DNA of 48,841 nt. Source: Methanospirillum sp. (lineage in GTDB: Archaea; Halobacteriota; Methanomicrobia; Methanomicrobiales; Methanospirillaceae). The translations under genes and the position numbers were made by a program. The stretch is from positions 1 through 48,841 of the forward strand of contig JAAYEG010000062.1 of NCBI GenBank assembly GCA_012728895.1, given 5' to 3'. This document shows positions 1,131 through 48,841 of this stretch, one piece after another. The first letter of the stretch is position 1. Every line of letters begins with the position of its first letter. Below the pieces are notes generated by a model that saw only the letters and a program-made list of their open reading frames with translations, was not told the DNA's origin and did not search any database.

Positions 1131-1290
1131 GCCGGGATGGTGCCGGCGCACGCGAGCGAGGCGTTCAGTGCGTTCGACGACCCCCTCGAGGCCGCCGTGC
1201 CGGCGGTGCGGCCCGGGCTCGGGCCCGTGCGGGAGGCAGAGCGCGGTCTCCGGGCACTCATGGGGCCGGCGGACCGGGTGATGTCCGTTT
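1131..1290 (+). pseudogene. Remnant fusing a small-helical-protein end and a RecA-like protein end
   Basis: Bases 1,131-1,205 are a near copy of the 3' half of the small gene at 48,162-48,428: HASEAFSAFDDPLEAAV here against HASEAFYALDDPLEAAV there. It is followed directly by AERGLRALMGPADRV, which matches the C-terminal part of the RecA-like gene at 47,659-48,180 (AERGFRALLGPADQV). In the intact module the RecA-like gene precedes the small gene, so the remnant has lost material and order. No start codon or ribosome binding site belongs to it. I treat it as a deletion-scarred copy of the module at the right end of the window. Confidence 0.65.
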
Positions 1291-1837: not shown

Positions 1838-2278
1838 GTGTTGACCCTGGGCCGGGACCGGATAATGGTATCCCGGACCCCTTCACCCGGGCGGCAGTCC
1901 TCCCGTGCGACCTGGATCTCCACCGGAACCGGGCCATCCCTCGCGGGAGGCCAGGACGAACGGGGCGTGCTTCGCCAGGCGCCCGGTGATGGGGGAGGGC
2001 CTGCCGGCGCGACCGTGTCCCCGTTATCGATGCGGAGAGCGGGGCTCAGAGACGGGTTCGGAGAGCGGCATCGCGCCGGCCGGCACGACCGGGGCCGCGG
2101 TCGGGATGGCCACCGCGAACAGGCCACGGACCCGGGACCGGTACAGCTGGCCGAACGGGCAGGTGCGCCCCGGGGGTCATCGCGATGACCGCCGGCACCC
2201 GGTCCGGAACTGCGGCGCACGCCCGGGCCGCGGCGAGCGGACAGAGGTGGTATCGAGGAGAGGACCCCCGGGCCAGCC
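1838..2278. other. Gap with no recognisable gene
   Basis: GC-rich stretch upstream of the second RecA-like remnant. Several long frames cross it, but none shows a recognisable motif or translation signal. Confidence 0.35.
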
Positions 2279-2445
2279 GCGGGCCCGTGCTGCTCCGGGC
2301 GCCGCGGGCGGAGCGCGGGTTCCGGGCGCTCATGGGGCCGGCGGACCGGGTGGTCTGGTACTACGAGGAATGGCCGGCGCGGCAGGCAGGCTCGGCAAGG
2401 CGGCGGGGGCGGGATATGCAAGCGACGCTGGACGGGGTGGGATGA
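2279..2445 (+). pseudogene. C-terminal remnant of a RecA-like module protein
   Basis: The segment reads GPVLLRAPRAERGFRALMG, then PADRVVWYYEE, and ends at TGA 2,443-2,445 after RRRGRDMQATLDGVG. It aligns almost residue for residue with the last 60 residues of the RecA-like protein at 47,659-48,180, which has AVLLWAPRAERGFRALLG, PADQVVWYYDE and RRRRDMQATFEEGG. The nucleotide match is also very high, so the copy is recent. Everything upstream of this C-terminal part is missing, and there is no start signal. Together with 1,131-1,290 it shows that the module was once present at least once more near the left end of the window. Confidence 0.7.
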
Positions 2446-2752
2446 GGTGAGGTCGGGGTGACGGGCCCTGCGGCTTCGGCTCCCGGACACCGGAGACATC
2501 GAGCGGATGACCGTCGATTCGCCAGCAGGGAGATTTCCAGGAGAGCGGTCATGGCTGACGACTTCCTGGTTCCCGGCCCGGTCGTCATCCCTCGTCAGCA
2601 ACAATCAAAGAATCTCGATCTGAACCGACAGGGGAATCCAGAAAAAATCGAAAAACTTCAACGATAAAAAATCCATCCTGATAGCCAGAACTAAAAAATC
2701 TCAACCCCTATCATGAGGTAGTGGAACCCAGCAAGCTCCCACGGAGAGAACG
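2446..2752. other. AT-rich spacer upstream of the methylase gene
   Basis: The base composition drops from very GC-rich to AT-rich at about 2,600. The segment holds several A-rich tracts (gataaaaaatcc near 2,664 and actaaaaaatctc near 2,691) that could act as promoter elements for the methylase gene. I see no coding sequence in it. Confidence 0.35.
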
Positions 2753-3806: not shown

Positions 3807-4012
3807 TCGGTGCCCCCGGCCGACCCAGACTTCGACGGCCTGTTCAAGGACGCGAACGGCAACCGCCGGCCGGACTTCGCGGACGTGGTGCTGTCCTTCA
3901 ACCAGATGGCCCGGATCGAGGAGAACGGGCCGACTGCGCTCTTCAGCTACAACGGCAATGGAAGGATCGACTTCGCCGACGTCACCTGGCTTGCAACCAC
4001 CTCGGAACCGTC
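3807..4012 (+). pseudogene. Orphan dockerin type I fragment
   Basis: In the third frame the DNA encodes a dockerin-like pair of calcium-binding loops: DGLFKDANGNRRPDFADVV, then SFNQMARIEENGP and FSYNGNGRIDFADVTWL. It closely matches the C-terminus of the protein remnant ending at 46,641. The first loop has lost some Asp/Gly residues, and the natural LFNHL end is replaced by LATTSEP. There is no start codon, signal peptide or upstream domain, so this is a transplanted 3' end. Its left junction cuts the endonuclease gene. Dockerins bind cohesins in large extracellular assemblies; this fragment alone would do nothing. Confidence 0.75.
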
Positions 4013-22902: not shown

Positions 22903-23114
22903 TAAACCCTTTTCAATGGCCAGGCTGCCCTCGCCGGTGCCCGGCGCGGATTCGTGTCTCCCCGGAGCATAATAACCTGTCGGTCACGGGGCGCGCGGCC
23001 GGGCGTCCCGCCCGCCGGCCCCCGTACCCCCGGAGGGGAGGGCCGCCGGGCCGCCCATGGGAGGAAAAATGGCCGCGACTGCCCCCCGGGGAGCGCCGTC
23101 GGCCGGTAACAATG

Positions 23115-23126
23115 AGATAATATATG
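23115..23126 (+). promoter_or_regulatory. Probable TATA box of the acs operon
   Basis: gataatatatgc stands out in GC-rich surroundings, about 40-50 bases before ATG 23,165, and leaves a short leader with AGGAG at 23,151-23,155. The bases between here and the cdc48 promoter hold no gene. Confidence 0.55.
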
Positions 23127-23164
23127 CAGGCACCCGAGAGAAAGGTACTCAGGAGATCCATGCG

Positions 23165-25195
23165 ATGATTGATATACCAGGGGCCGTGGAGGCGGGCAGC
23201 ACCGCCCTGGAGGCGGCGATGGCGGCGCTCGCCGGCCCGCTCGCCTACGAGGAGACGGCCTATCACCTTCCCATCTCGTTCGCGGTCACCGGCGAAGCGG
23301 TGTCCGACGCGGACTCGGCGCGGGCGGCCTGGTCCGCCTCGGCCAGAAACCCGCTCGTGGCCTGGGAGTGCGTCGTGGCCGGCCGCACGGCTGCAACCGG
23401 CCCCGCGGGGGGAGCGTTCACCGGGTTCATCCCCGACGCCGAGATCCGGAAGCTCGGGTACTCGCTCGTCGACGGCTCGATCCTGGGGCTCTGCCTGATC
23501 GTCGGTACGCCCCGGCACCGCGAGACCGCCCCCGCCCTCTGCCGGGAGCTGCAGGAGAAGTACATGCTGACCTTCCTCGCTGGCCCGGTCGTCCCGATGC
23601 TCCAGGAGGCGAACGTCCGGGTCGGGCTCGAGTACCGGCTCGTCCCCCTCGGCCCGGCGCCGTCGCACGGCGTCCACTTCGCCGACATCCTGGCGCGGGT
23701 CGCGATGATGTTCGGCGGGGTCGCGCCCGGGGACGCGGCGCGTCTCCTCGCGTACGCGGCCGAGCGGGCGAAGGCGATGGTGATCGTCTTCCCCGATCTG
23801 ACAGACGAGGAGGTGGCCTGCGTCGACGCGCTCCGGATGCTCGGGGTGCCGGTCCTCCACACCGGCGGCTACTCCGGCGGCGAGTGGGTCGCGACCGGGG
23901 GACAGGACGCGGTCCGGACCGGGATGGACCTGCTCGGGATCCGGGTCACGGTGACCGCGATCCCGATCCCGATGGGCTGCTCACCCGCGTTCGAGGGCAA
24001 GTCGATCCGCAAGGAGGAGATGTACGTGGAGTTCGGCGGCAACCGGTCACCGGCCTTCGAGCTTCTCAGGATGAGGGACCCGGGCGAGGTCGAGGACGGC
24101 AGGGTGAACGTGATTGGCCCCGAGGTCGAGGACCTCCGCGAGGGCTCGGCCGTACCGCTCGCGATCCTGGTCGACGTGGCCGGGAAGAACTTCCGGAAAG
24201 ACTACGAGCCCGTGCTCGAGCGCCGGATCCACAACTTCGTCAACTACGGCGAGGGCTCCTGGCACACGGCCCAGCGCGACCTGATCTGGGTCCGGCTCTC
24301 GAAAGAGGCGGTCAGGAACGGGATCCGGATCGAGCACCTGGGCAAGCTCCTCGCCGCCAAGTTCCGGATGGACTTCCCCGACCTGCTCGACGCCGTCCAG
24401 GTGACGCTCGTCACGGACGGTGCCGAGGTCGAGCGGCTGAAACAAGAGGCCGAGGCCGTCTACGAGGAGCGGGACGCCCGGGTCCGCGGGATGCGCGACG
24501 ACGACGTGGACGTCTTCTACTCGTGCACGCTCTGCCAGACCTTCGCGCCCGACCACGTCTGCGTGATCACGCCCGAGCGCCCCGCGCTCTGCGGGGCCAT
24601 CTCCTGGCTCGACGGGAGGATCGCACACGAGATCTCGCCCGCCGGCGCGAACCAGCCGGTCCTGAAGGAGGGGCTGCTCGACCGGGACGGGGGCGAGTTC
24701 GAGGGGGTGAACCGCTTCGTCAGGAAGGCCTCGCACGGCGCGGTCGAGCGGGTCCGGCTCTACTCGGTGGTGGAGTACCCGATGACCTGCTGCGGCTGCT
24801 TCGAGGCGATCGCGCTGGTGCTGCCCGAGGTGAACGGGATCATGGTCGTGAACCGGGAGTACAAGGGCGAGACCCCGTCCGGCATGACCTTCTCGACCCT
24901 GGCCGGCACGATCGGCGGCGGGGCGCAGACCCCGGGCTTCGCCGGGATCTCGAAGGGCTATCTCCTCTCGGACCGGTTCCTCCAGGCCGAGGGCGGGATC
25001 GAGCGGCTGGTCTGGATCCCGGCGGCCCTCAAAGAGGAGCTCGGCCCCCGGCTCAGGGCGAAGCTCGAGGAGAAGGGCCTCGCCGACCTCTTCGCGAAGA
25101 TCGCGACCGAGGAGGAGGCGACCACCATCGAGGAGCTGATGGTGTACCTCGAGCAGGTCAACCACCCGGCGCTCGGGATGAAGGAGCTCTTCTAG
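23165..25195 (+). CDS. acsB: Acetyl-CoA synthase, bacterial-type long form (ACS/CODH beta)
   Basis: 676 residues. It joins CO, a methyl group from the corrinoid protein and CoA to acetyl-CoA at a Ni-Ni-[4Fe-4S] A-cluster. The cluster ligands are all present: Cys454, 457, 466 and 476 in the SCTLCQTF to ALCGAI region, and Cys543/Cys545 in TCCGCFEA. Their spacing is identical to that of the Moorella enzyme (506, 509, 518, 528, 595, 597). Before this domain lie about 300 residues corresponding to the CODH-binding N-terminal domain and hinge of bacterial ACS. Canonical archaeal CdhC (about 470 residues) lacks these and starts near the segment here reading GKSIRKEEMYVEFGGNRSP. ATG 23,165 has AGGAG nine bases upstream. 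It is the first gene of a six-gene operon. Long-form ACS in a methanogen suggests transfer from a bacterium. Confidence 0.93.
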   Translation: MIDIPGAVEAGSTALEAAMAALAGPLAYEETAYHLPISFAVTGEAVSDADSARAAWSASARNPLVAWECVVAGRTAATGPAGGAFTGFIPDAEIRKLGYSLVDGSILGLCLIVGTPRHRETAPALCRELQEKYMLTFLAGPVVPMLQEANVRVGLEYRLVPLGPAPSHGVHFADILARVAMMFGGVAPGDAARLLAYAAERAKAMVIVFPDLTDEEVACVDALRMLGVPVLHTGGYSGGEWVATGGQDAVRTGMDLLGIRVTVTAIPIPMGCSPAFEGKSIRKEEMYVEFGGNRSPAFELLRMRDPGEVEDGRVNVIGPEVEDLREGSAVPLAILVDVAGKNFRKDYEPVLERRIHNFVNYGEGSWHTAQRDLIWVRLSKEAVRNGIRIEHLGKLLAAKFRMDFPDLLDAVQVTLVTDGAEVERLKQEAEAVYEERDARVRGMRDDDVDVFYSCTLCQTFAPDHVCVITPERPALCGAISWLDGRIAHEISPAGANQPVLKEGLLDRDGGEFEGVNRFVRKASHGAVERVRLYSVVEYPMTCCGCFEAIALVLPEVNGIMVVNREYKGETPSGMTFSTLAGTIGGGAQTPGFAGISKGYLLSDRFLQAEGGIERLVWIPAALKEELGPRLRAKLEEKGLADLFAKIATEEEATTIEELMVYLEQVNHPALGMKELF

Positions 25196-25204
25196 GGGTG
25201 CCTC

Positions 25205-26143
25205 ATGGGATACGACGCACACACGGACTGGAGCGGGACGATCGACCGGGTCCAGCTCGGCGCCACCAGGTCCGAGGGGGGGACCCGCTCGGTCTCCTAC
25301 AGGCTCGGCGGGAACACGGGCCTCCCGTTCGTCGAGCCTCACGAGGGCCTCGTTTGCCCCCTGGTGGCCTACGAGATCTGCGACGACCCGGTCTACTGGC
25401 CGGCGCTCGTGCTCGACCGGCTCGGCGACACGGTGGAGGACCTCGCGCTCTGGACGCGGACCGCCGAGACCGAGCTCGGGGCCGACCTGGTCCGGCTCTA
25501 CCTGACCTCGACGAAGCGGCGCGGGTTCGACGACTTCGCGGCGATCGGGACGGTGGTCGAGACGGTGCTGGCCTCGACTCCCCTCCCCCTGGTGGTGGAG
25601 GGGCCGAACGAACCCGCGATCGAGTCCGAGGCCTTCCGGCGGATCGGGGAGGCCGGCGAGGGCGAGCGGCTCCTGCTCGGGACGGCCGAGGCCACCCGCT
25701 ACCGCTCGGTGGCGGCGGCCGCGCTCGCGTACCACCACGGCGTCATCGCCCAGTCCCCGATCGACGTGAACCTGGCCAAGCAGCTCAACATCCTCCTCCG
25801 CGAGATCGGCGTGCCCCACGACCAGATCGTGATCGACCCGTACACCGGGGCGCTCGGCTACGGGTTCGAGTACTCCTACTCCGCGATGGAGCGGATCCGC
25901 TACGCCGCCCTGAAGGGGGACGCGGACCTCGCGATGCCGATGATCTCGTCCGCGATCGACTCGCTCGCGATAAAAGAGGTCCGCGACGCCCCGCCCGGCG
26001 AGGAGCACCGGACCGCCGTCGCCTGGGAGGTGACCACCGGCCTCTCGGCAGCCGTCGCCGGCGCGGCGGTGGTCTGCGTCCGCCACCCCGACTCGGTGGC
26101 GCCGCTGAAGGCCGCGATCGCGGCCACCTGGGGGGGGTCCTGA
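25205..26143 (+). CDS. acsD: Corrinoid iron-sulfur protein, small subunit
   Basis: 312 residues. TIM-barrel subunit of the corrinoid/iron-sulfur protein that carries the methyl group to ACS; it caps the cobalamin together with the large subunit. Recognisable stretches are the N-terminal YRLGGNTGLPFVEPHEG, the barrel strands LVRLYLTSTKRRGFDDF and IAQSPIDVNLAKQLNILL, and IVIDPYTGALGYGFEYSYS. The length equals the bacterial AcsD form; archaeal CdhD is longer, with an extra C-terminal part. ATG 25,205 lies nine bases after the acsB stop. Its stop overlaps the acsC start (TGATG), indicating translational coupling. Confidence 0.92.
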   Translation: MGYDAHTDWSGTIDRVQLGATRSEGGTRSVSYRLGGNTGLPFVEPHEGLVCPLVAYEICDDPVYWPALVLDRLGDTVEDLALWTRTAETELGADLVRLYLTSTKRRGFDDFAAIGTVVETVLASTPLPLVVEGPNEPAIESEAFRRIGEAGEGERLLLGTAEATRYRSVAAAALAYHHGVIAQSPIDVNLAKQLNILLREIGVPHDQIVIDPYTGALGYGFEYSYSAMERIRYAALKGDADLAMPMISSAIDSLAIKEVRDAPPGEEHRTAVAWEVTTGLSAAVAGAAVVCVRHPDSVAPLKAAIAATWGGS

Positions 26144-27480
26144 TGGCCCTCAAGGCCCTCGACATCTACAAGCTCCTGCCCAAGAAGAACTGCAAGGAGT
26201 GCGGGGTGCCGACCTGCCTGACGTTCGCGATGAAGCTCGCCTCGGGCAAGGCCGACATCGAGCTCTGCCCGTACCTCGACGACGAGGCGAAAGCCGTGCT
26301 CGGCGCCTCGACCCGCCCCCCCATCCGGCTCGTGAAGGTCGGGGTCGGGGAGCGCTCGTTCAGGGTCGGCGACGAGTTCGTCTTCTACCGGCACGAGAAG
26401 ACGTTCTACCACCAGCCGGGGCTCGTCTTCCGGGTCTCGGACACCTGGGACGAGCCGACCATCACCGGCGTGGTCCACGAGGTCCGCGACTACAAGCTGA
26501 CCCGCGTCGGCCAGGACCTGGTCCTGAACGGGATCGCGATCGCGAACGACTCGGGCGACCCGGGAACGTTCGCCCGGGCGGTCGAGACCGTCGAGGCGAA
26601 CGCCAACCTCCCCGAGGTCCTGATCGCCGCGGAACCGGCGGCGCTCGAGGCGGCCCTCGTCCACTGCGGCTCGTTCCACCCGCTCCTGGACGGGGCGACG
26701 GCGGAGAACGCGGAGGCCGTCTGCGCGCTCGCGAAGAAGCACGGGGCCCCGCTCGTGGTCCGCGCGCCGGACTTCGAGCCTCTCGTCGCGCTCGTCCAGC
26801 GCTGCACCGCGCTCGGCGTCCAGGACATCCTCCTCGACCTGGACGCCCCGACCCCGGCCGAGTTCGTCAAGCGCTCCTCGGCCGTCCGGCAGCTCGCGAT
26901 CGCCCGGGCCGTGCCCGAGCTCGGCTACCCGGTCTACTACGACTGCTCCCGGGCTGGCGAGCTGGCGGGGGCCGCGCTCGCGCTCGGTATCCTGAAGTTC
27001 GGCTCGGTCCTGGTGACCGGCCCGCTCCCGCGCCCCGGGACGGTCGCCGCGCTCACCCTCCGGCAGAACATCTACACCGACCCCCAGAAGCCGATCCAGA
27101 TGACCCCCGGGCTGTACCGGGTCGGGAACCCCGGCCCGGAGGCCCCGGTGCTGCTGACCGTGAACTTCTCGCTCACCTTCTTCACGCTCCAGGGCTACCT
27201 CGAGGCGACCCGGGTCCCGTGCTTCATGCTGATCGTGGACACGGAGGGGCAGTCCGTCCTCACCGCGGTGGCGGCCGGCAAGCTCTCGGAGACGGTGGTC
27301 GCCGAGGCGCTCAAGACCTTCGAGGTGGCGGACGCGGTCAAGCACCGGACGGTGATCATCCCCGGGTACGCGGCCCCGCTCTCGGGGGCGATCGAGGACG
27401 CGACCGGGTGGAAGGTGATGGTCGGCCCGCGGGACGCGGCCGACATCGGCGGGTTCCTCGAGACAGAATGGAAGGGATAG
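26143..27480 (+). CDS. acsC: Corrinoid iron-sulfur protein, large subunit
   Basis: 445 residues. It binds cobalamin in its C-terminal domain and a low-potential [4Fe-4S] cluster in the N-terminal domain that reactivates oxidised cobalt. The cluster ligands are Cys17, Cys20, Cys25 and Cys42 in KKNCKECGVPTCLTF and ELCPYL, the spacing known from the acetogen protein. The middle TIM barrel contains PVYYDCSRAG and LPRPGTVAALTLRQNIY. The C-terminal cobalamin domain ends in VIIPGYAAPLSGAIED and VMVGPRDAADIGGFL. ATG 26,143 overlaps the acsD stop. The TAG stop is followed at once by the next start codon. Together with AcsD it forms the methyl carrier between a methyltransferase, ACS and probably the methionine synthase encoded two genes later. 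Confidence 0.93.
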   Translation: MALKALDIYKLLPKKNCKECGVPTCLTFAMKLASGKADIELCPYLDDEAKAVLGASTRPPIRLVKVGVGERSFRVGDEFVFYRHEKTFYHQPGLVFRVSDTWDEPTITGVVHEVRDYKLTRVGQDLVLNGIAIANDSGDPGTFARAVETVEANANLPEVLIAAEPAALEAALVHCGSFHPLLDGATAENAEAVCALAKKHGAPLVVRAPDFEPLVALVQRCTALGVQDILLDLDAPTPAEFVKRSSAVRQLAIARAVPELGYPVYYDCSRAGELAGAALALGILKFGSVLVTGPLPRPGTVAALTLRQNIYTDPQKPIQMTPGLYRVGNPGPEAPVLLTVNFSLTFFTLQGYLEATRVPCFMLIVDTEGQSVLTAVAAGKLSETVVAEALKTFEVADAVKHRTVIIPGYAAPLSGAIEDATGWKVMVGPRDAADIGGFLETEWKG

Positions 27481-29412
27481 ATGCCGGTCGTCACCTTCCT
27501 CCCGAGTTACCGCAAGATCGAGGTCACCGCCGGGACCACCGTCCTGGACGCGGCCCGGCGGGCCGGGCTCCAGATGAACGTGGTCTGCGGCGGCATCGGC
27601 AAGTGCGGCAAGTGCATCGTGTACGTGAAGTCCGGCCGGGTCGAGTTCGACCGGCAGAAGTACGGCCGGTTCTTCACGCCGGGCGAGCTCGGGCGCGGGG
27701 CCTGCCTGGCCTGCGTGACCGGCGTGGTCTCGGACATCGACGTGACCGTCCCCGAGGGCTCGCTGATCCAGGAGCAGAAGATCCTGATCGAGGGGCTCGA
27801 CATCACCACCGCGTTCCGCCCCTCGGTCCTGAAGTACCACGTCACCCTCTCGCCCCCGACCCTCGAGGACCCGTCCCCCGACCTGAACCGGCTCCTGGAC
27901 GCGATCCACCGGGCCCAAGGCCCCCCGCCCGAGAAGATCTTCGCGCCGCTCGGCGTGCTCAGGCGGATCCCGGAGATCCTCCGGTCGGCCGAGTGGGACG
28001 TGACCGCGACGGTCGGGCTCCAGCCCCCGGGCAAGTACTGGCTGCTGAACGTCGAGGCCGGCGACACCTCGGGCCGGCTCTTCGGGGCCTCGATCGACCT
28101 GGGCACGACCACGGTGGTGGCCTATGTCTGGGACCTCATCTCCGGGAAGGTGGCGGGGATCGCCTCGAACTACAACCGCCAGATCTCCTGCGGCGAGGAT
28201 ATCCTCTCCCGCGTCAACTTCGGCCGGAGGTCGGGTCTCACCAAGCTCCAGGCGCTCGCGGCCGAGTCGATCAACACCGCGATCACGAACGCGGCGAACC
28301 ACGCCAGGATAGACCGCGACGACATCTACGAGGTGATGGTGGCCGGCAACACGGTGATGACCCACATGCTGCTCGGGATCGACCCCGCCTACATCATCTC
28401 CGAGCCGTACGTCCCGGTGGTCCGCCGGTCGATCAACACGGCGGCCTCGAACCTGGACCTCTCGGTCGCCCCGACGGCCGGCGTCTTCGCGTTCCCGGCC
28501 GTCTCGGACTTTATCGGGGGCGACATCGTGGCGGACGTGCTCGCCTGCGGGATGGGGGCGAGCGACGAGGTCTCCCTGATGATCGACATCGGCACGAACT
28601 TCGAGGTGGTGCTCGGCAACAACGAGTGGATGTTCTCGTGCGCGGGGGCCGCGGGCCCGGCGCTCGAGGGCGGCGAGGTGCTCTTCGGGATGCGGGCGAA
28701 CCCCGGCGCGATCGAGCAGGTCACGGTCGACCCCGTGACGCTCCGGCCGGGCTGGAGGACCATCAACGGGATCAAGCCGAAGGGGATCTGCGGCTCGGGG
28801 CTGATCGACCTCCTCGCCGAGCTCCTCACCAGCTGCGTGATCGACCGGACCGGGATGATCGACACCACGATCGACCATCCACGCATCCGGCAGGGCGATC
28901 ACGCGGCGGAGTACGTGGTCGCGTTCGCGAACGAGGCCGGGATCGAGAAGGACCTGGTCGTGACCGAGAACGACGTCAAGTCCCTGATCATGTCCAAGGC
29001 CTCGGTGCTGGCGGCCTGCCAGGTACTGATGAACGTGGCCGGGATCACGCACTCGGAGATCGGGACGGTCTTCTTCTCGGGCGGGTTCGGGAACTATATC
29101 AACAAGCAGAACGCGATCACGATCGGCCTGATCCCCGAGGTCCCGCTCGACCGGATCAAGAACATCGGGAACGGGGCGATCAACGGCGCGAACATCGCCC
29201 TGATCAACCGCGACGAGCGGCGGACGCTCGACGTGATCGCGGACAACATCGCCTACGTGGAGCTGAACGCCGAGCCCTCGTTCATGGAGGAGTACACCTC
29301 GGCCTCGTTCCTGCCGCATACCGACCTCGGGCGGTTCCCCGGGGTCTCCGCGATGCTCAGCCAGTGCCGGATCCGGGCGCACGCGAACGGCATCCGGAAG
29401 ACGGAGGCCTGA
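27481..29412 (+). CDS. acsV: Reductive activator of corrinoid protein (RACo/AcsV-like)
   Basis: 643 residues. ATP-dependent activator that reduces Co(II) corrinoid back to Co(I). The N-terminal ferredoxin domain has Cys36, Cys42, Cys45 and a further pair at 75/78 (VVCGGIGKCGKCIV and GACLACV), fitting a [2Fe-2S] cluster. A linker is followed from about residue 200 by an ASKHA ATPase domain: GASIDLGTTTVVAYVWDL (phosphate 1), MIDIGTNFEVVLGN (phosphate 2 region), and IFFSGGFGNYINKQNA-like sequence near the end (here VFFSGGFGNYINKQN). This is the layout of RACo proteins of acetogens. ATG 27,481 directly follows the acsC stop. Its place in the operon supports reactivation of AcsCD as its task. Confidence 0.9.
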   Translation: MPVVTFLPSYRKIEVTAGTTVLDAARRAGLQMNVVCGGIGKCGKCIVYVKSGRVEFDRQKYGRFFTPGELGRGACLACVTGVVSDIDVTVPEGSLIQEQKILIEGLDITTAFRPSVLKYHVTLSPPTLEDPSPDLNRLLDAIHRAQGPPPEKIFAPLGVLRRIPEILRSAEWDVTATVGLQPPGKYWLLNVEAGDTSGRLFGASIDLGTTTVVAYVWDLISGKVAGIASNYNRQISCGEDILSRVNFGRRSGLTKLQALAAESINTAITNAANHARIDRDDIYEVMVAGNTVMTHMLLGIDPAYIISEPYVPVVRRSINTAASNLDLSVAPTAGVFAFPAVSDFIGGDIVADVLACGMGASDEVSLMIDIGTNFEVVLGNNEWMFSCAGAAGPALEGGEVLFGMRANPGAIEQVTVDPVTLRPGWRTINGIKPKGICGSGLIDLLAELLTSCVIDRTGMIDTTIDHPRIRQGDHAAEYVVAFANEAGIEKDLVVTENDVKSLIMSKASVLAACQVLMNVAGITHSEIGTVFFSGGFGNYINKQNAITIGLIPEVPLDRIKNIGNGAINGANIALINRDERRTLDVIADNIAYVELNAEPSFMEEYTSASFLPHTDLGRFPGVSAMLSQCRIRAHANGIRKTEA

Positions 29413-37481: not shown

Positions 37482-37625
37482 GTCATCCTGTACTTCAACC
37501 AGGTGACCTGGATCGCCGGCAACGAACCTGTCTCCGCGTTCGACTACAACGCCAACGGCCGTATCGACTACAACGACGCCGTCTGGCTCTTCAACCAGCT
37601 CTCCGTTTTCACCGGCACGAAGCGA
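37482..37625 (+). pseudogene. Orphan dockerin type I fragment
   Basis: One frame encodes VILYFNQVTWIAGNEPVSAF, then DYNANGRIDYNDAVWLFNQL, the linker and second calcium loop of the dockerin seen complete at 46,460-46,641. The first loop and everything upstream are missing. It lies immediately before the truncated membrane protein, so a junction again falls at a dockerin end. Confidence 0.72.
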
Positions 37626-40978: not shown

Positions 40979-41029
40979 GACGGCCGGATCGACTTCGCCG
41001 ACGTCGTCTGGCTCTTCAACAACCTCTGA
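40979..41029 (+). pseudogene. Dockerin 3' end fragment
   Basis: DGRIDFADVVWLFNNL followed by TGA is the last calcium loop and helix of the same dockerin type found at 46,590-46,641. Nothing upstream continues the domain. Confidence 0.7.
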
Positions 41030-44491: not shown

Positions 44492-45259
44492 GTGGAAGAG
44501 ATCAGGATCGAGACCATCGCAGTTCTTCCGGGAACAGCGAAGGACGGTCAACCCGAGCCGTTCGACGAACTGACCATCCGCGCCGGCGACATGGTCTCAA
44601 TCGTCGGCCCGACGGGATCGGGAGAGTCGGCCCTGATCAACGATATCGAGGTCTTCGCCCAGGAGGATACGGTTACCGGCCGGACAGTGCTCGTGAATGG
44701 CGAGGCGCCGCCGGAGCTGATCTGTCGCGACCCGGCGAACAAGCCGATCGCGATGATCGCGTAGACGAGCAAGTGCCTGGCCGACCAGCGGGTGCGGCAG
44801 TTCCTGGGGATGCACTGCGCGGCACGGAGGCTTGACGGGGATCTCACGATCAATGACACGATCACGCTCGCGAACGGGTTCACCTGCGAGGCCGTCGGGG
44901 AGGAGATGCGCATGACCGCGCTCTCCGGCGGGCAGACCCGTGCCCTGATGATCGCGGACGCCCTGCTGGTCAGCAGGACCCCGATCATCCTGCTCGACGA
45001 GATCGAGAATGCTGGGATCTTCAAGGAACGGGTGATCGCGCGGCTTCGCGAGTTCGCCAGGGCCGTTCTCTTCGTGACCCACGACCGGTTCGCCGCGCTC
45101 CTTTCCGATCGGCGGATCGTGATGCGGAACGGCGCAGTCGTCTCCGTCCTCGAACCGGGCGGTGCCGAGGCTGTTGCCCTCGGGGAGATGGCCGACGTGG
45201 ATGCCCGGTTTCACGCGATCCACGAACGAATCCGGGCCAGTGAGCTCCTCACCGGGGGA
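44492..45259 (+). pseudogene. Decayed ABC-type ATPase
   Basis: A complete ABC ATPase frame of about 255 codons is recognisable: Walker A region SIVGPTGSGESALINDIE, the signature ALSGGQTRALMIADALL, Walker B PIILLDEIENAG, and the switch histidine in VLFVTHDRFAALL. Two lesions break it. The Walker A lysine is replaced by glutamate (GSGES where GSGKS is required), and TAG stands at 44,762-44,764 just where related sequences would be expected to have the Q-loop glutamine. It is followed without spacing by a truncated GTPase and a truncated Fe-S protein, so it belonged to a three-gene operon. I do not know the physiological role of this trio. Confidence 0.8.
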
Positions 45260-45261
45260 TC

Positions 45262-45759
45262 ATGGTCCTTGCCGACGCGCTCGCCTGGGCCGGGGACGAG
45301 GGTGCGGACCTGCTGATCGTCGAGTCTGCCGGCCTCTGCCTCCGCTGTACGCCATACACCACACAGTCGCTCGGGATCGTGGTGCTGCCGGCAATCTCCG
45401 GCACGAATGCACCGCTGAAGATGGCGCCGATGATTGCATTCGCCGATATCGCGGTCGTGACCAAGACGGATCTCGTCTCGCAGGCCGAGAAGGAGGTCTT
45501 CCGCGAGGCGATCCGGCGCGTGACCCCGGGGATCGACCTGATCGAGACGAACGCGATCGAGGGGACGGGCCTCCGGTACCTGTTCCGGGCGGTCGAAGCC
45601 TGTCCGCCGATCGAGAATTCCTCGTCGATCGTCCTCCGTGGGGCCCCGCCGCTCGGGGTCTGCACGATCTGCGCGGGGAAGAAGGAGATCGGCTGGCGCC
45701 ACCACTTCGGAGTCGTGCGGACCCTGGAGGCGGCGGACGAGCTCTACCGAGGGGACTGA
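45262..45759 (+). pseudogene. SIMIBI/HypB-like GTPase, N-terminal half missing
   Basis: About 165 residues of a G-protein related to HypB/UreG/CobW-type metal-insertion GTPases: ADLLIVESAGLCLRCTPYTT (Walker B/switch region with two cysteines), AVVTKTDLVSQAEKEVFREA (the TKxD guanine-specificity motif) and VFREAIRRVTPGIDLIETNA. The C-terminus has two more cysteines in GVCTICAGKKEIGWRHHFG. The P-loop that should lie about 80-100 residues before the start is absent; the upstream DNA is the end of the ABC gene. A deletion has therefore removed the nucleotide-binding half. The frame itself is clean. Confidence 0.72.
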
Positions 45760-45763
45760 GGCG

Positions 45764-46075
45764 GTGGCCTGGGAGCCGCCGGGCAAGGACTGCGGGGCCT
45801 GCGGGGTCCGGAGCTGCCGCGACTTCGCCGAGGGGCTGCGGGCCGGGACGCGGGTATTCGCGGACTGCCCGCACCGGGCCCGCCGCCTGGACCTGGACGA
45901 GACGGCCCTGCTCCAGGTCTACGACGGGGTGGACCTGCTCGGCTCGGAGTACGACTTCATCCTCCGGCCGCTCCCGGGCCAGCCCTCGGCCCAGCGGTAC
46001 GTCCACCCCTTCCACCCCGAGCTGGTGGAGCAGTGGGGGATCGGCCCGGGCGCGGTCGTGATCGGCTGGCCCGTA
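45764..46075 (+). pseudogene. Fe-S protein fragment, 3' end replaced
   Basis: The frame starts at GTG 45,764 with GKDCGACGVRSCRDFAEGLR and FADCPHRARRLD, a four-cysteine arrangement like that of CFeSP-type or DUF-containing [4Fe-4S] domains. About 100 residues later, after GIGPGAVVIGWP, the protein sequence ends at about 46,070 and the DNA switches to an extracellular dockerin protein. The fused frame stays open to 46,641 but passes through out-of-frame material between, so the product would be a nonsense chimera. It is the third member of the decayed ABC-GTPase-Fe-S cluster. Confidence 0.65.
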
Positions 46076-46641
46076 CTACGACTCGTTCGGCAACGGCACC
46101 TACTCCATCAAGTTCGAGTGGGAGACGCGCGGCCAGAACGCCCCCTCTCGCATCGACATACGGCATCCATCACAGTCGGACCGCCCTGGCAGGAATCGAC
46201 GGGGGCGGCCAACCGTACCTATCAGGGCGCTGTCCGGGTAGACTATGCGCTCGAGGGTTCGGAGACGCGGGTGGCGTTCAACGCATACGCGTTCTGCAAC
46301 CTCTCGAACAACGGCGCGACCATGATCGCCTGGACGAACCGGCTCCAGGGCGGGAACGTGACGGGCACGAACCACGGTTATTCCGACTCCCGGGTGGTCA
46401 AGCTCGCGGCCGAACCCGCGGTGGTGATGGTGCCGGGAGGCGTCGCCCTGCCGACGGACACCGACGGCGACGGGCTGTACGACGACGTCAACGGCAACGG
46501 CCGGCCGGAATTCGCCGACATCGTGCTCTTCTTCAACCAGATGACCTGGATACCGGAGAACGAGCCGGTGGTCCGGTTCGACTTCAACGGCAACGGCCGC
46601 ATCGACTTCGCCGACGTCACCTGGCTCTTCAACCACCTGTA
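46076..46641 (+). pseudogene. C-terminal part of a dockerin-bearing extracellular protein
   Basis: From 46,076 one frame gives YYDSFGNGTYSIKFEWETRG up to about 46,150. After a frame change another gives a beta-rich extracellular domain, YQGAVRVDYALEGSETRVAF with CNLSNNGATMIAWTNRL, and then a complete dockerin: DTDGDGLYDDVNGNGRPEF and RFDFNGNGRIDFADVTWLF, ending NHL and TAA. The dockerin has two full calcium loops and is the best preserved of the copies in the window. The signal peptide and N-terminal domains are lost, and the 5' side is joined to a truncated Fe-S gene. Dockerins would bind a cohesin partner on the cell surface. Confidence 0.75.
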
Positions 46642-46907
46642 ACCCCTTTTCTCTCCGGAGCGCGGACCGCCTCCTCACTTTCGCCCCGCGTCCCTCCTGT
46701 CTCATCTTCCCCGGGCGCCACTATCTCCGTGCCGGCCGCCCGGGCAGGGTGCCGGCCACCACACCGGAGTTGTTCCATGACTGCAAGAGACGAACGCCAC
46801 ACCCCCGTCCGCGCCCGCCGCCGGCACGAACGCCGCACGGGCCGGGCGGGTGCCGCTGAAGACGGGGACACGGTGCCGGGCGCCGCCGGCGCACCGGGAG
46901 GCCCGGC
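46642..46907. other. Gap before the RecA-like module
   Basis: GC-rich, with a C/T-rich stretch after the dockerin stop (ccccttttctctccgg) that may act as a terminator. No gene and no clear promoter for the module is visible. Confidence 0.35.
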
Positions 46908-47147
46908 ATGAGCTGCCGCTCGGAGCTGCCGGCCGTCCTCGAGCGCTGGCGCCGGTTCCGCCGGGCGCTGAAAGTCGAGGACCAGCCGGCGATGGACGTG
47001 ATCATCGCCGCGCTCGAGAAGAACGGGCCGGCCACGTTCGGCCGGCTCGACGACCCGCTCGAGGCCGCGGTCCTCGCGGTGCTGATGGAGCTCGCGCGGG
47101 AGGCGGAGCCGGATGCGCCTCTGGTGCTGGCCGGGCGCCACGTTTGA
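46908..47147 (+). CDS. Small helical protein A of the RecA-like module
   Basis: 79 residues, all helical in appearance: LPAVLERWRRFRRALKVEDQ, then PAMDVIIAALEKNGPATFGR and LDDPLEAAVLAVLMELAREA. It is a paralogue of the 88-residue protein at 48,162-48,428. Both share ERWRR near the start, a charged helix, and the strongly conserved LDDPLEAAVLAVL. The pattern W-(R)-x-(Y/F)-RRAL-x-x-(D)-Q followed by a DP-x-E motif recalls a small haloarchaeal protein family (possibly DUF8156), but this is from memory. The gene overlaps the following RecA-like gene by 35 bases in another frame. The function is unknown; it probably binds the RecA-like partner. Confidence 0.65.
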   Translation: MSCRSELPAVLERWRRFRRALKVEDQPAMDVIIAALEKNGPATFGRLDDPLEAAVLAVLMELAREAEPDAPLVLAGRHV

Positions 47148-47655
47148 GCCGGGACGGCTCGCGGTCCTGGTCGCGCCGCCGGAGAGGATGGCCGCGCTCC
47201 TGGAGCTGCCGGAGATCGCGAACTTCCACACCCGGTACCTCTACCACGGCCTCTCGGAGGTCCTCTTCCGCGTGCCGCCGATTCGCTCGGAGCACTTCGA
47301 AACGGTGGAGGCCGCGACCCTCGACGAGCTGATGGCCGGGATCCGGTCGTCGTTCCACACGGTCCTGATGGTCGAGTGGAACGGGGCGCTCGCGGCCGGC
47401 CTCGAGGGCGAGGAGCGGGCCCGGCGGATGGGGCGGCTCCGGGCCGCGTTGAAGCGGCGGGCCGAGTCGTCGATCGTGATCGTGTACGCGCCGGCCATGG
47501 ACGCGGCGCTGCGGCTGGTGGCGGACGGGTCCGACCAGGCGGTCTGGCTCGTGCCGACGCCGGCGGAGCCGCGGCCGTCGGTACGGGTGGCGGCGCGGGC
47601 GACGGCGCAACGGACGCTGGCCGAGCTGCTCGCGACGGGATGCATGGAGCGGTGA
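47113..47655 (+). CDS. RecA-fold protein lacking Walker A, copy A
   Basis: 180 residues. Aligned without gaps to the next gene from the first residue: WPGATFEPGRLAVLVAPPE here, EPSIAVEAGRFTALVSPPE there, which supports start 47,113 despite the overlap with the preceding gene. The fold looks like RecA/RadA: a first beta-strand that should lead to the P-loop but reads LVAPPERMAA, a middle helix with LYHGLSEVLFRVPPIRSEHF, a hydrophobic Walker B-like strand HTVLMVEWNGALAAGLEG, and another strand SSIVIVYAPAMDAAL. With no GxxxxGK[ST] it cannot bind ATP in the usual way. Such inactive RecA paralogues may act as structural partners. It carries a short C-terminal extension. Confidence 0.65.
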   Translation: MRLWCWPGATFEPGRLAVLVAPPERMAALLELPEIANFHTRYLYHGLSEVLFRVPPIRSEHFETVEAATLDELMAGIRSSFHTVLMVEWNGALAAGLEGEERARRMGRLRAALKRRAESSIVIVYAPAMDAALRLVADGSDQAVWLVPTPAEPRPSVRVAARATAQRTLAELLATGCMER

Positions 47656-47658
47656 GCG

Positions 47659-48180
47659 ATGGCGCTCGTGCTCGAGCCGAGCATCGCGGTCGAGGCCGGC
47701 CGGTTCACGGCCCTGGTCTCGCCGCCGGAGCTCCTGGTCGGCCTACTCCTCGAGCCGGAGGTGGACCGGTTCGCGTCGCTCTACCTCTACGGCGTCAGCT
47801 CGCAGGTGCTCGGCCGGCTGCCGCGCCGGGCCCCGCGGCTCCTGGTCCGGAGCTGCATGACCGTGTACCAGCTCCTCACGTCGCTCCGGGAGGCGGACGA
47901 GTCGATCGTGATCGTGGAGTACGACGACGGGGTCTTCTCGGCGCTCGAGGGCGAGGACCGCGACGTGATCTTCGCGGTCGGCCGGCAGCTCCGGGAGCTC
48001 GCGCGAGATGCGGCCGTGCTGCTCTGGGCGCCGCGGGCGGAGCGCGGGTTCCGGGCGCTCCTGGGGCCGGCGGACCAGGTGGTCTGGTACTACGACGAGC
48101 GGCCGGCGGGGCCGGCGCGGAGGAGGAGGCGGGATATGCAGGCGACGTTCGAGGAGGGGGGATGGGGCGGGTCTTCCTGA
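47659..48180 (+). CDS. RecA-fold protein lacking Walker A, copy B
   Basis: 173 residues, paralogue of the preceding protein. Main segments are RFTALVSPPELLVGLLLEPE (P-loop position without Gly/Lys), FASLYLYGVSSQVLGRLPR, CMTVYQLLTSLREADESIVI and VEYDDGVFSALEGEDRDVIF (the Walker B-like acidic strand), and AVLLWAPRAERGFRALLG with PADQVVWYYDE. The C-terminal tail is arginine-rich (RRRRRDMQAT). Degraded copies of its C-terminal third lie at 1,220-1,290 and 2,279-2,445. Its stop overlaps the start of the second small gene, as in translational coupling. I do not recognise a named family. The fold assignment to RecA/RadA-like is by pattern, and a structure prediction would be the test. Confidence 0.65.
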   Translation: MALVLEPSIAVEAGRFTALVSPPELLVGLLLEPEVDRFASLYLYGVSSQVLGRLPRRAPRLLVRSCMTVYQLLTSLREADESIVIVEYDDGVFSALEGEDRDVIFAVGRQLRELARDAAVLLWAPRAERGFRALLGPADQVVWYYDERPAGPARRRRRDMQATFEEGGWGGSS

Positions 48181-48428
48181 GCCAGCGGCAGGGCGTCCGC
48201 GCGACGGCCGAGCGCTGGCGGCGGTCCGGGCGCGGGCTCCGGGACGGGGATCGTGCCGCGCTCGAACGGCTCGCCGGGATGGCGGCGGCGCACGCGAGCG
48301 AGGCGTTCTACGCGCTCGACGACCCGCTCGAAGCCGCGGTGCTCGCGGTGCTCGTCGAGGCCGCCGCCCCCGTCCGCACGACCGTACCAGCACCAGTACC
48401 TGACGGTGAACCGGTTTGCCAGGGTTGA
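48162..48428 (+). CDS. Small helical protein B of the RecA-like module
   Basis: 88 residues from ATG 48,162, with GAGGAGG about eight bases upstream, inside the end of the RecA-like gene. It begins MGRVFLSQRQGVRATAERWR, continues RSGRGLRDGDRAALERLAGM and AAAHASEAFYALDDPLEAAV, and ends with a short proline/valine tail. It is the paralogue of the protein at 46,908-47,147 and the source of the remnant at 1,131-1,205. The four genes thus run small-RecA-RecA-small in one direction, a symmetrical order that suggests duplication of a two-gene unit. The function is unknown. Confidence 0.62.
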   Translation: MGRVFLSQRQGVRATAERWRRSGRGLRDGDRAALERLAGMAAAHASEAFYALDDPLEAAVLAVLVEAAAPVRTTVPAPVPDGEPVCQG

Positions 48429-48770: not shown

Positions 48771-48841
48771 GTGAGCACGTTCGGGAACTATTTCCTCCAC
48801 CAGGAATATGCGGCTATCGCCGCCCGTGGTGATCCTCTCAA
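48771..48841 (+). CDS. Transposase N-terminus (cut by window edge)
   Basis: GTG 48,771 opens a frame reading STFGNYFLHQEYAAIAARGD and running off the window. This resembles the N-terminus of IS5/IS1182-like archaeal transposases, which start with a short FxNYFLHQEY-x-x-I-x-x-x-GD(R/P)L helix and continue into DWExFR. Only 23 codons are visible, so the family is tentative. The lower GC content of the last 200 bases fits a mobile element. Confidence 0.5.
   Translation, partial: MSTFGNYFLHQEYAAIAARGDPL

Follow-up and report, generated by a model that had tools for sequence, protein, structure and literature searches.

A four-gene iRadA–PPB2 module of Methanospirillum: probable accessory subunits of a PolB2 mutasome split between two loci, in a candidate SOS-like regulon

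Four small forward-strand ORFs lie in the order S1-R1-R2-S2 (small–RecA-like–RecA-like–small) at positions 46908-48428 of a Methanospirillum contig, and they raise the question of which system two RecA-like proteins lacking the P-loop lysine serve together with two small partners. The original prediction proposed that the four proteins form a complex and an undescribed system; it also pointed to predicted archaeal repair or mutagenesis operons, some with an inactivated PolB, which turned out to be the right system, and set them aside because no polymerase gene is adjacent. There is indeed no polymerase gene within the window, the whole 48,841-nt stretch analysed here, but polB2 lies elsewhere in the same genome. 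The window is an entire contig (C56) of a 2.28-Mb, 95%-complete draft genome (G000) and ends 413 bp from the module, at position 48841.

Gene layout and predicted fold

The features of the window are compiled in Table 1. S1 and R1 overlap by 35 nt and R2 and S2 by 19 nt, in agreement with the gene order and overlaps first described, except that R1 and R2 are separated by a 3-nt gap. The paralogy proposed within each pair holds as well, with R1 and R2 being 32% identical over 145 aa (E 6e-20) and S1 and S2 sharing LDDPLEAAVLAVL and matching each other at E 1.8e-9. The promoter box, the leader ORF, which has counterparts at the same place in other modules, and the remnant copies near the window start had not been part of that description.

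Table 1 Features of the window (positions on the 48,841-nt contig)
Feature	Position	Strand	Length	Description
Promoter box	46675-46689	+		TCACTTTCGCCCCGC, common to polB2, radA and other repair genes
TATA-like element	46702-46708	+		TCATCTT, weak; putative, spacing as in relatives
Leader ORF	46777-46911	+	44 aa	MTARDERHTPVRARRRHERRTG..., stop overlaps S1 start (ATGA)
S1	46908-47147	+	79 aa	PPB2-family small protein without N-terminal MGR arm
R1	47113-47655	+	180 aa	Genus-restricted iRadA paralogue, predicted RecA/Rad51 fold, no P-loop
R2	47659-48180	+	173 aa	iRadA, predicted RecA/Rad51 fold, no P-loop; only intact R2-type copy found in the genome
S2	48162-48428	+	88 aa	MGR-armed PPB2 retaining Arg3 and Arg9; no other intact armed copy found in the genome
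Duplicated block	46667-47108	+		Box, leader ORF and most of S1
Remnant	1131-1280	+		Degenerate, S2/R2-like copy
Remnant	2266-2447	+		Degenerate, of R2
CO dehydrogenase/acetyl-CoA synthase region	23057-29412			CdhC and CdhD genes and a RACo-type reactivator
Two ORFs upstream of the module	44492-45316			Together resemble one broken ABC-type ATPase (Walker A GPTGSGES); likely decayed gene
CobW/HypB-type GTPase and FeS-domain ORF	45262-46642			GTPase lacking its N-terminal part; FeS-domain ORF that continues into a dockerin-like end; probably remnants of genes or a chimera
Recurring sequence	46451-46638; 3816-4002; 37493-37600; 40980-41025			Around dockerin-like ends; first copy against the others, 78-91% identity

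The AlphaFold2 models of R2 and R1 as single chains (pLDDT 86.8 and 89.0) display an alternating alpha/beta architecture, and Foldseek comparison against the PDB matched both to RecA, Rad51, DMC1, RadA and KaiC (best E 4e-5 for R2 and 6e-6 for R1, query TM-score about 0.5-0.6), the best structural match of R1 being in a Rad51-paralogue complex. The predicted fold of R1 and R2 is hence the RadA/Rad51 core without the N-terminal domain, which bears out the RecA-like character suspected at the outset. The fold comparison was needed because the iRadA profile, searched against PDB sequences, yielded only marginal ABC/UvrA pieces and no RadA, which agrees with the comment that only sensitive methods detect the most decayed iRadA group (Makarova 2014, PMC4104785). 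A P-loop of the type G....GK[ST] is present neither in R1 and R2, as had been noticed, nor in any of 41 homologues, and the iRadA homologues have (A/S)PP or APE at its position; judged from these motifs, the ATPase site of iRadA is lost in both proteins. At the C-terminus, 40 of the 41 iRadA homologues carry QxxL/F, and the sequences of the window proteins there are QRTLAELL and QATFEEGG, which lack the aromatic pair; a C-terminal PCNA-binding motif occurs in many, not all, iRadA members.

Family identity and operon context

In the archaeal PolB2 operon, the polymerase gene is accompanied by genes for iRadA, a RadA homologue that is inactive, and for PPB2 (arCOG07300), which is helical and ~90 aa long (Makarova 2014, PMC4104785; Timinskas 2025, PMC11791011). 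By homology and gene order, R1 and R2 belong to the iRadA family and S1 and S2 to the PPB2 family, that is, to the accessory subunits of the PolB2 translesion mutasome, as dozens of genomes have their orthologues immediately ahead of polB2 and these fit the published description. Homologues of R2 occur in 31 of the 41 genomes searched, its own included, and the gene neighbourhoods confirmed the suspected co-occurrence of the two families, which recur together throughout the order and beyond, so that the module is not a product of chance. According to profiles built in this analysis, most other genera have R, then S2, then a ~660-aa gene. Its product belongs to the B-family DNA polymerases (PF00136): motif A (DFTSLYPS) is intact, the first Asp of DxD is replaced (GITD or GIVD), and most copies have an AADR motif. 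This signature agrees with the description of PolB2 in PMC11791011, and the downstream gene is therefore polB2. The order iRadA–PPB2–PolB2 is that of most Methanomicrobiales, and 54 of the 79 named-genome loci show it, with the S1/S2 profile mapping to the PPB2 position of the operons; the collection was scanned with the PPB2 alignment, since the iRadA alignment is too variable. In a genome of another genus (G009) the order is S1-R-S2-PolB2, which ties S1 to PolB2 too and indicates that the parts of the window module, R1 excepted, derive from a known operon form.

The N-terminus of S2 (MGRVFLSQR) carries the MGR(T) arm, and that of S1 (MSCRSELP) is devoid of it. Duplicated PPB2 genes have been described as one armed and one arm-less copy (PMC11791011), and on this basis we class S1 as the arm-less type. 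PolB2, iRadA and PPB2 have been modelled by AlphaFold as a heteropentamer, PolB2:iRadA:PPB2x3, in which the arm reaches in between PolB2 and iRadA close to the DNA (Timinskas 2025, PMC11791011), and from these models it is likely that the four proteins form a complex, as originally predicted. The same cannot be said of the proposal that the system is undescribed and unrelated to any polymerase. The lack of a polymerase in the window would suit it, as would the database searches, in which Pfam, NCBIfam, PADLOC and PHROGs offered no usable family for the four proteins (weak matches only, E 0.011 or worse), but the position of the orthologues directly upstream of polB2 and their fit to the published iRadA and PPB2 refute it as to family membership, and we find it hardly credible.

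Twelve of the 79 named-genome loci hold an iRadA-PPB2 pair without polB2, several of them with 3-5 kb of downstream sequence, although this sequence is too short in some to exclude polB2. These pairs (L182, L185, L186, L187, L198, L201, L205-L207, L210, L216 and L233) are mostly from Methanothrix/Methanotrichaceae, and one locus consists of two tandem pairs. Their recurrence speaks for a PolB2-independent module, in which PPB2-iRadA would act alone, e.g., as a cap or antagonist of RadA filaments or as a loader of other factors at stalled forks, with the linkage to PolB2 being ancestral; so do the extra two-gene copies in haloarchaea (Makarova 2014, PMC4104785) and the strong divergence of R1, which is nearly genus-wide and has its best structural match in a complex of Rad51 paralogues. 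However, polB2 is present in all seven genomes of the window's genus, S2 has kept the arm that contacts PolB2 and iRadA, and the published model of PolB2 with active RadA is poor (PMC11791011), which argues for a specific role of iRadA. We regard independence from PolB2 as unlikely.

Dispersal and decay of the accessory genes in the genus

New with regard to the known operons is that the window's genus (G000-G006) carries extra copies of the accessory genes, which are spread over several loci and for the most part not linked to polB2. Besides the S1-R1-R2-S2 order of the window, we found S1-R2-S2-R1 (G005, G003), S1-R2-S2 (G004, G006), S1-R1 pairs and single R1 genes. The neighbour of polB2 is an arm-less PPB2 in the window's own genome, an armed PPB2 in G001, iRadA in G002, G003 and G005, and nothing recognisable in G004 and G006. 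The one intact polB2 of the window's genome (C46:16437-18389) adjoins an arm-less, S1-like PPB2 with no iRadA beside it, and the block of the window that comprises the box, the leader ORF and most of S1 is duplicated just upstream of this polB2 (95.9% identity over 443 bp); an overlap between the ends of the two contigs was looked for and not found. Since no intact armed PPB2 or R2-type iRadA was found in the genome outside the window, polB2 is found on C46 with an arm-less PPB2 and the two loci share this block, the mutasome of the organism appears to be encoded at two loci.

A second new observation is that R1 is a genus-restricted iRadA paralogue: it is monophyletic (100/100) on a long branch and at an identity of at least 44% was found only in the window's genus, most other family members having a single iRadA match. 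Two genomes of the genus carry a third, very divergent iRadA-like paralogue, R3 (L047:8285-8779, L049:1846-2343), and at one of these loci a perfect promoter box lies 50 bp ahead of R3, with no PPB2 detected in the vicinity.

Degenerate copies are frequent in the genus. In addition to the remnants in the window, the C3 copy of R2 in the same genome looks degenerate (pN/pS 0.93 against R2), a second polB2 is broken in G000 and G003, G003 possesses an R1/R2 chimera (L036), and in the same genome a CRISPR array (L050:7000-8350, translated repeats GSSPRTWGT/RFIPTHVGNT/VHPHARGEH) is situated inside a decayed PPB2/iRadA copy. Such copies are what one would find if the module were a decaying by-product of gene amplification in the genus, with no present function. 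Its four ORFs are nevertheless intact, the box is kept, and the genome has no other intact copy of either the R2 or the armed S2 type. Furthermore, the mean pN/pS of 0.49 for R1, 0.54 for R2 and 0.48 for S2 (0.65 for S1 and 0.37 for polB2), only indicative given the high GC content, is well below 1 and suggests that R1, R2 and S2 are under selection. A functionless by-product is thus very improbable.

A promoter box shared with repair genes and the proposed mutasome

The third new observation is that the module stands behind a promoter box common to repair genes. The box, TCACTTTCRCNCCGC, consists of CACTTTC and a C-rich stretch, with a TATA-like element following 12-16 nt on. Of 64 iRadA genes in the named genomes, 47 are preceded by CACTTTC at a distance of no more than 150 bp, compared with 0.93 expected by shuffling, and it always lies 62-75 nt from the start of the iRadA profile. 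Across the genus, with its seven genomes, 46 copies of YCACTTTCNCNCCGC stand against 0 of the reversed pattern, and in 18 genomes of other genera 44 copies of CACTTTCRCMCYGC stand against a control count of 2. For the heptamer itself, the reversed count (23) is no valid control because CTTTCAC lies inside CACTTTCAC, and shuffling and in-gene stretches were used instead. Counted on orthologue sets rather than on box matches, 23 of 30 radA orthologues of relatives have the CACTTTC core of the box upstream (0.36 expected by shuffling, 1 in an equal in-gene stretch), as do 23 of 30 orthologues of an RNase_H_2 gene (0.44 expected, 1 in-gene). These figures are strong evidence, at the level of sequence, that the box is a shared cis-element. 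A further candidate element, GGTACCAGCGTGGCGG, was rejected, being absent near the window module and part of the leader ORF coding sequence in sister modules.

The genes behind the box comprise, besides the mutasome, radA, the RNase_H_2 nuclease, a radical-SAM putative repair protein, a ~140-aa family without known domain and, as single instances each, MCM, Orc1/Cdc6 (L144), RPA and SbcD; some box sites have no recognisable gene behind them. The RNase_H_2 protein has ~360 aa and a GIGP-type hairpin sequence (L123:1043-2152, L154, L159, orthologues L281-L310). The ~140-aa family, with no Pfam or NCBIfam match and the motifs GYLQR.G, NW.YYL and SGKALNIEL, is found repeatedly directly behind the box (L142:1581-2000, L168:1027-1437, L152, L163, L164, L165, L167) and is a candidate DNA-repair gene. 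From this list of downstream genes, we infer that the box mediates a damage response. A literature search, with most subscription journals outside its scope, found no paper describing such a box. The element of the Sulfolobus Orc1-2 damage regulon, DDRE, is ANTTTC (PMC9738581); the ACTTTC of our box fits it, both precede a polB2-type gene, and the orc1/cdc6 of one relative has the box. However, our box is longer and the archaeal lineage distant, and the resemblance of so short a motif is only a lead.

In our assessment, the four genes quite probably encode accessory subunits of a PolB2 mutasome that is encoded at two loci and belongs to a candidate SOS-like regulon. R2 would be the canonical iRadA, a RadA-like protein with lost ATP binding, S2 the canonical PPB2 with the MGR arm, S1 a PPB2 that lacks it and R1 a derived paralogue of iRadA, and PolB2 would come from the other contig, where its gene follows a copy of the promoter block and a nearly identical S1. 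Through the shared box, DNA damage would induce both the window operon and the S1-polB2 locus, and the mutasome would be assembled from the products of the two. Following the models in the literature, PolB2 would bind R2 by a RadA-like oligomerisation motif and S2 by the MGR arm, and the resulting translesion complex would extend mismatched or blocked primer ends, as reported for Sulfolobus. R1 and S1 would, more tentatively, probably join alternative complexes or tune their amount. In relatives, the function of the polymerase, its induction and the modelled heteropentamer are known from the literature. Against the mutasome reading stand the absence of a polymerase from the window, the closeness of the module to the contig end in an incomplete draft, and S1 itself, which is without the arm thought to be needed for PolB2 binding; with so many decayed copies in the genus, the module might also be on its way out.

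The module shares with the PolB2 (Dpo2) mutasome operon (PMC4104785, PMC11791011) the accessory families, the fold, the lost ATPase site and the combination of an armed with an arm-less PPB2, and in relatives PolB2 is encoded in the operon. It differs in that no polB2 adjoins it, in its two iRadA paralogues, in the order PPB2-iRadA-iRadA-PPB2 and in the dispersed, multi-copy state of the genes in the genus. The haloarchaeal iRadA-PPB2 copies without polB2 (Makarova 2014) are likewise PolB2-less accessory pairs beside a genome-encoded polB2. In contrast to these two-gene copies, the window has four genes with a derived iRadA, R1, and its genome no complete mutasome operon next to polB2. ImuA-ImuB-DnaE2 also joins an error-prone polymerase to a RecA-family protein and small partners, with a polymerase of another family, and is an analogy only. 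This applies equally to the bacterial Pol V (UmuC-UmuD'2-RecA), which combines the same kinds of components around a polymerase of a different family (PMC11791011).

That Methanomicrobiales and their relatives share an SOS-like regulon, so far undescribed and marked by TCACTTTCRCNCCGC-(12-16 nt)-TATA (with the polB2 mutasome, radA, the RNase_H_2 nuclease, the ~140-aa family and, in some genomes, MCM, Orc1/Cdc6, RPA and SbcD), and that the genus has a mutasome split over two loci, with a second iRadA giving an alternative heteromeric mutasome, is a combined proposal whose chances we see as evenly balanced. To our knowledge, euryarchaea have no LexA circuit, and the control of their DNA repair is unsettled. 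The candidate repair regulon containing the module is the more consequential result: a box that a mutagenic polymerase complex, RadA and several replication and repair genes have in common throughout a methanogen order with cultured members, among them Methanocalculus taiwanensis, which has the box (locus L212), would give a direct handle on repair control, and the split and duplicated accessory module is a natural experiment on which copies of iRadA and PPB2 are needed by PolB2.
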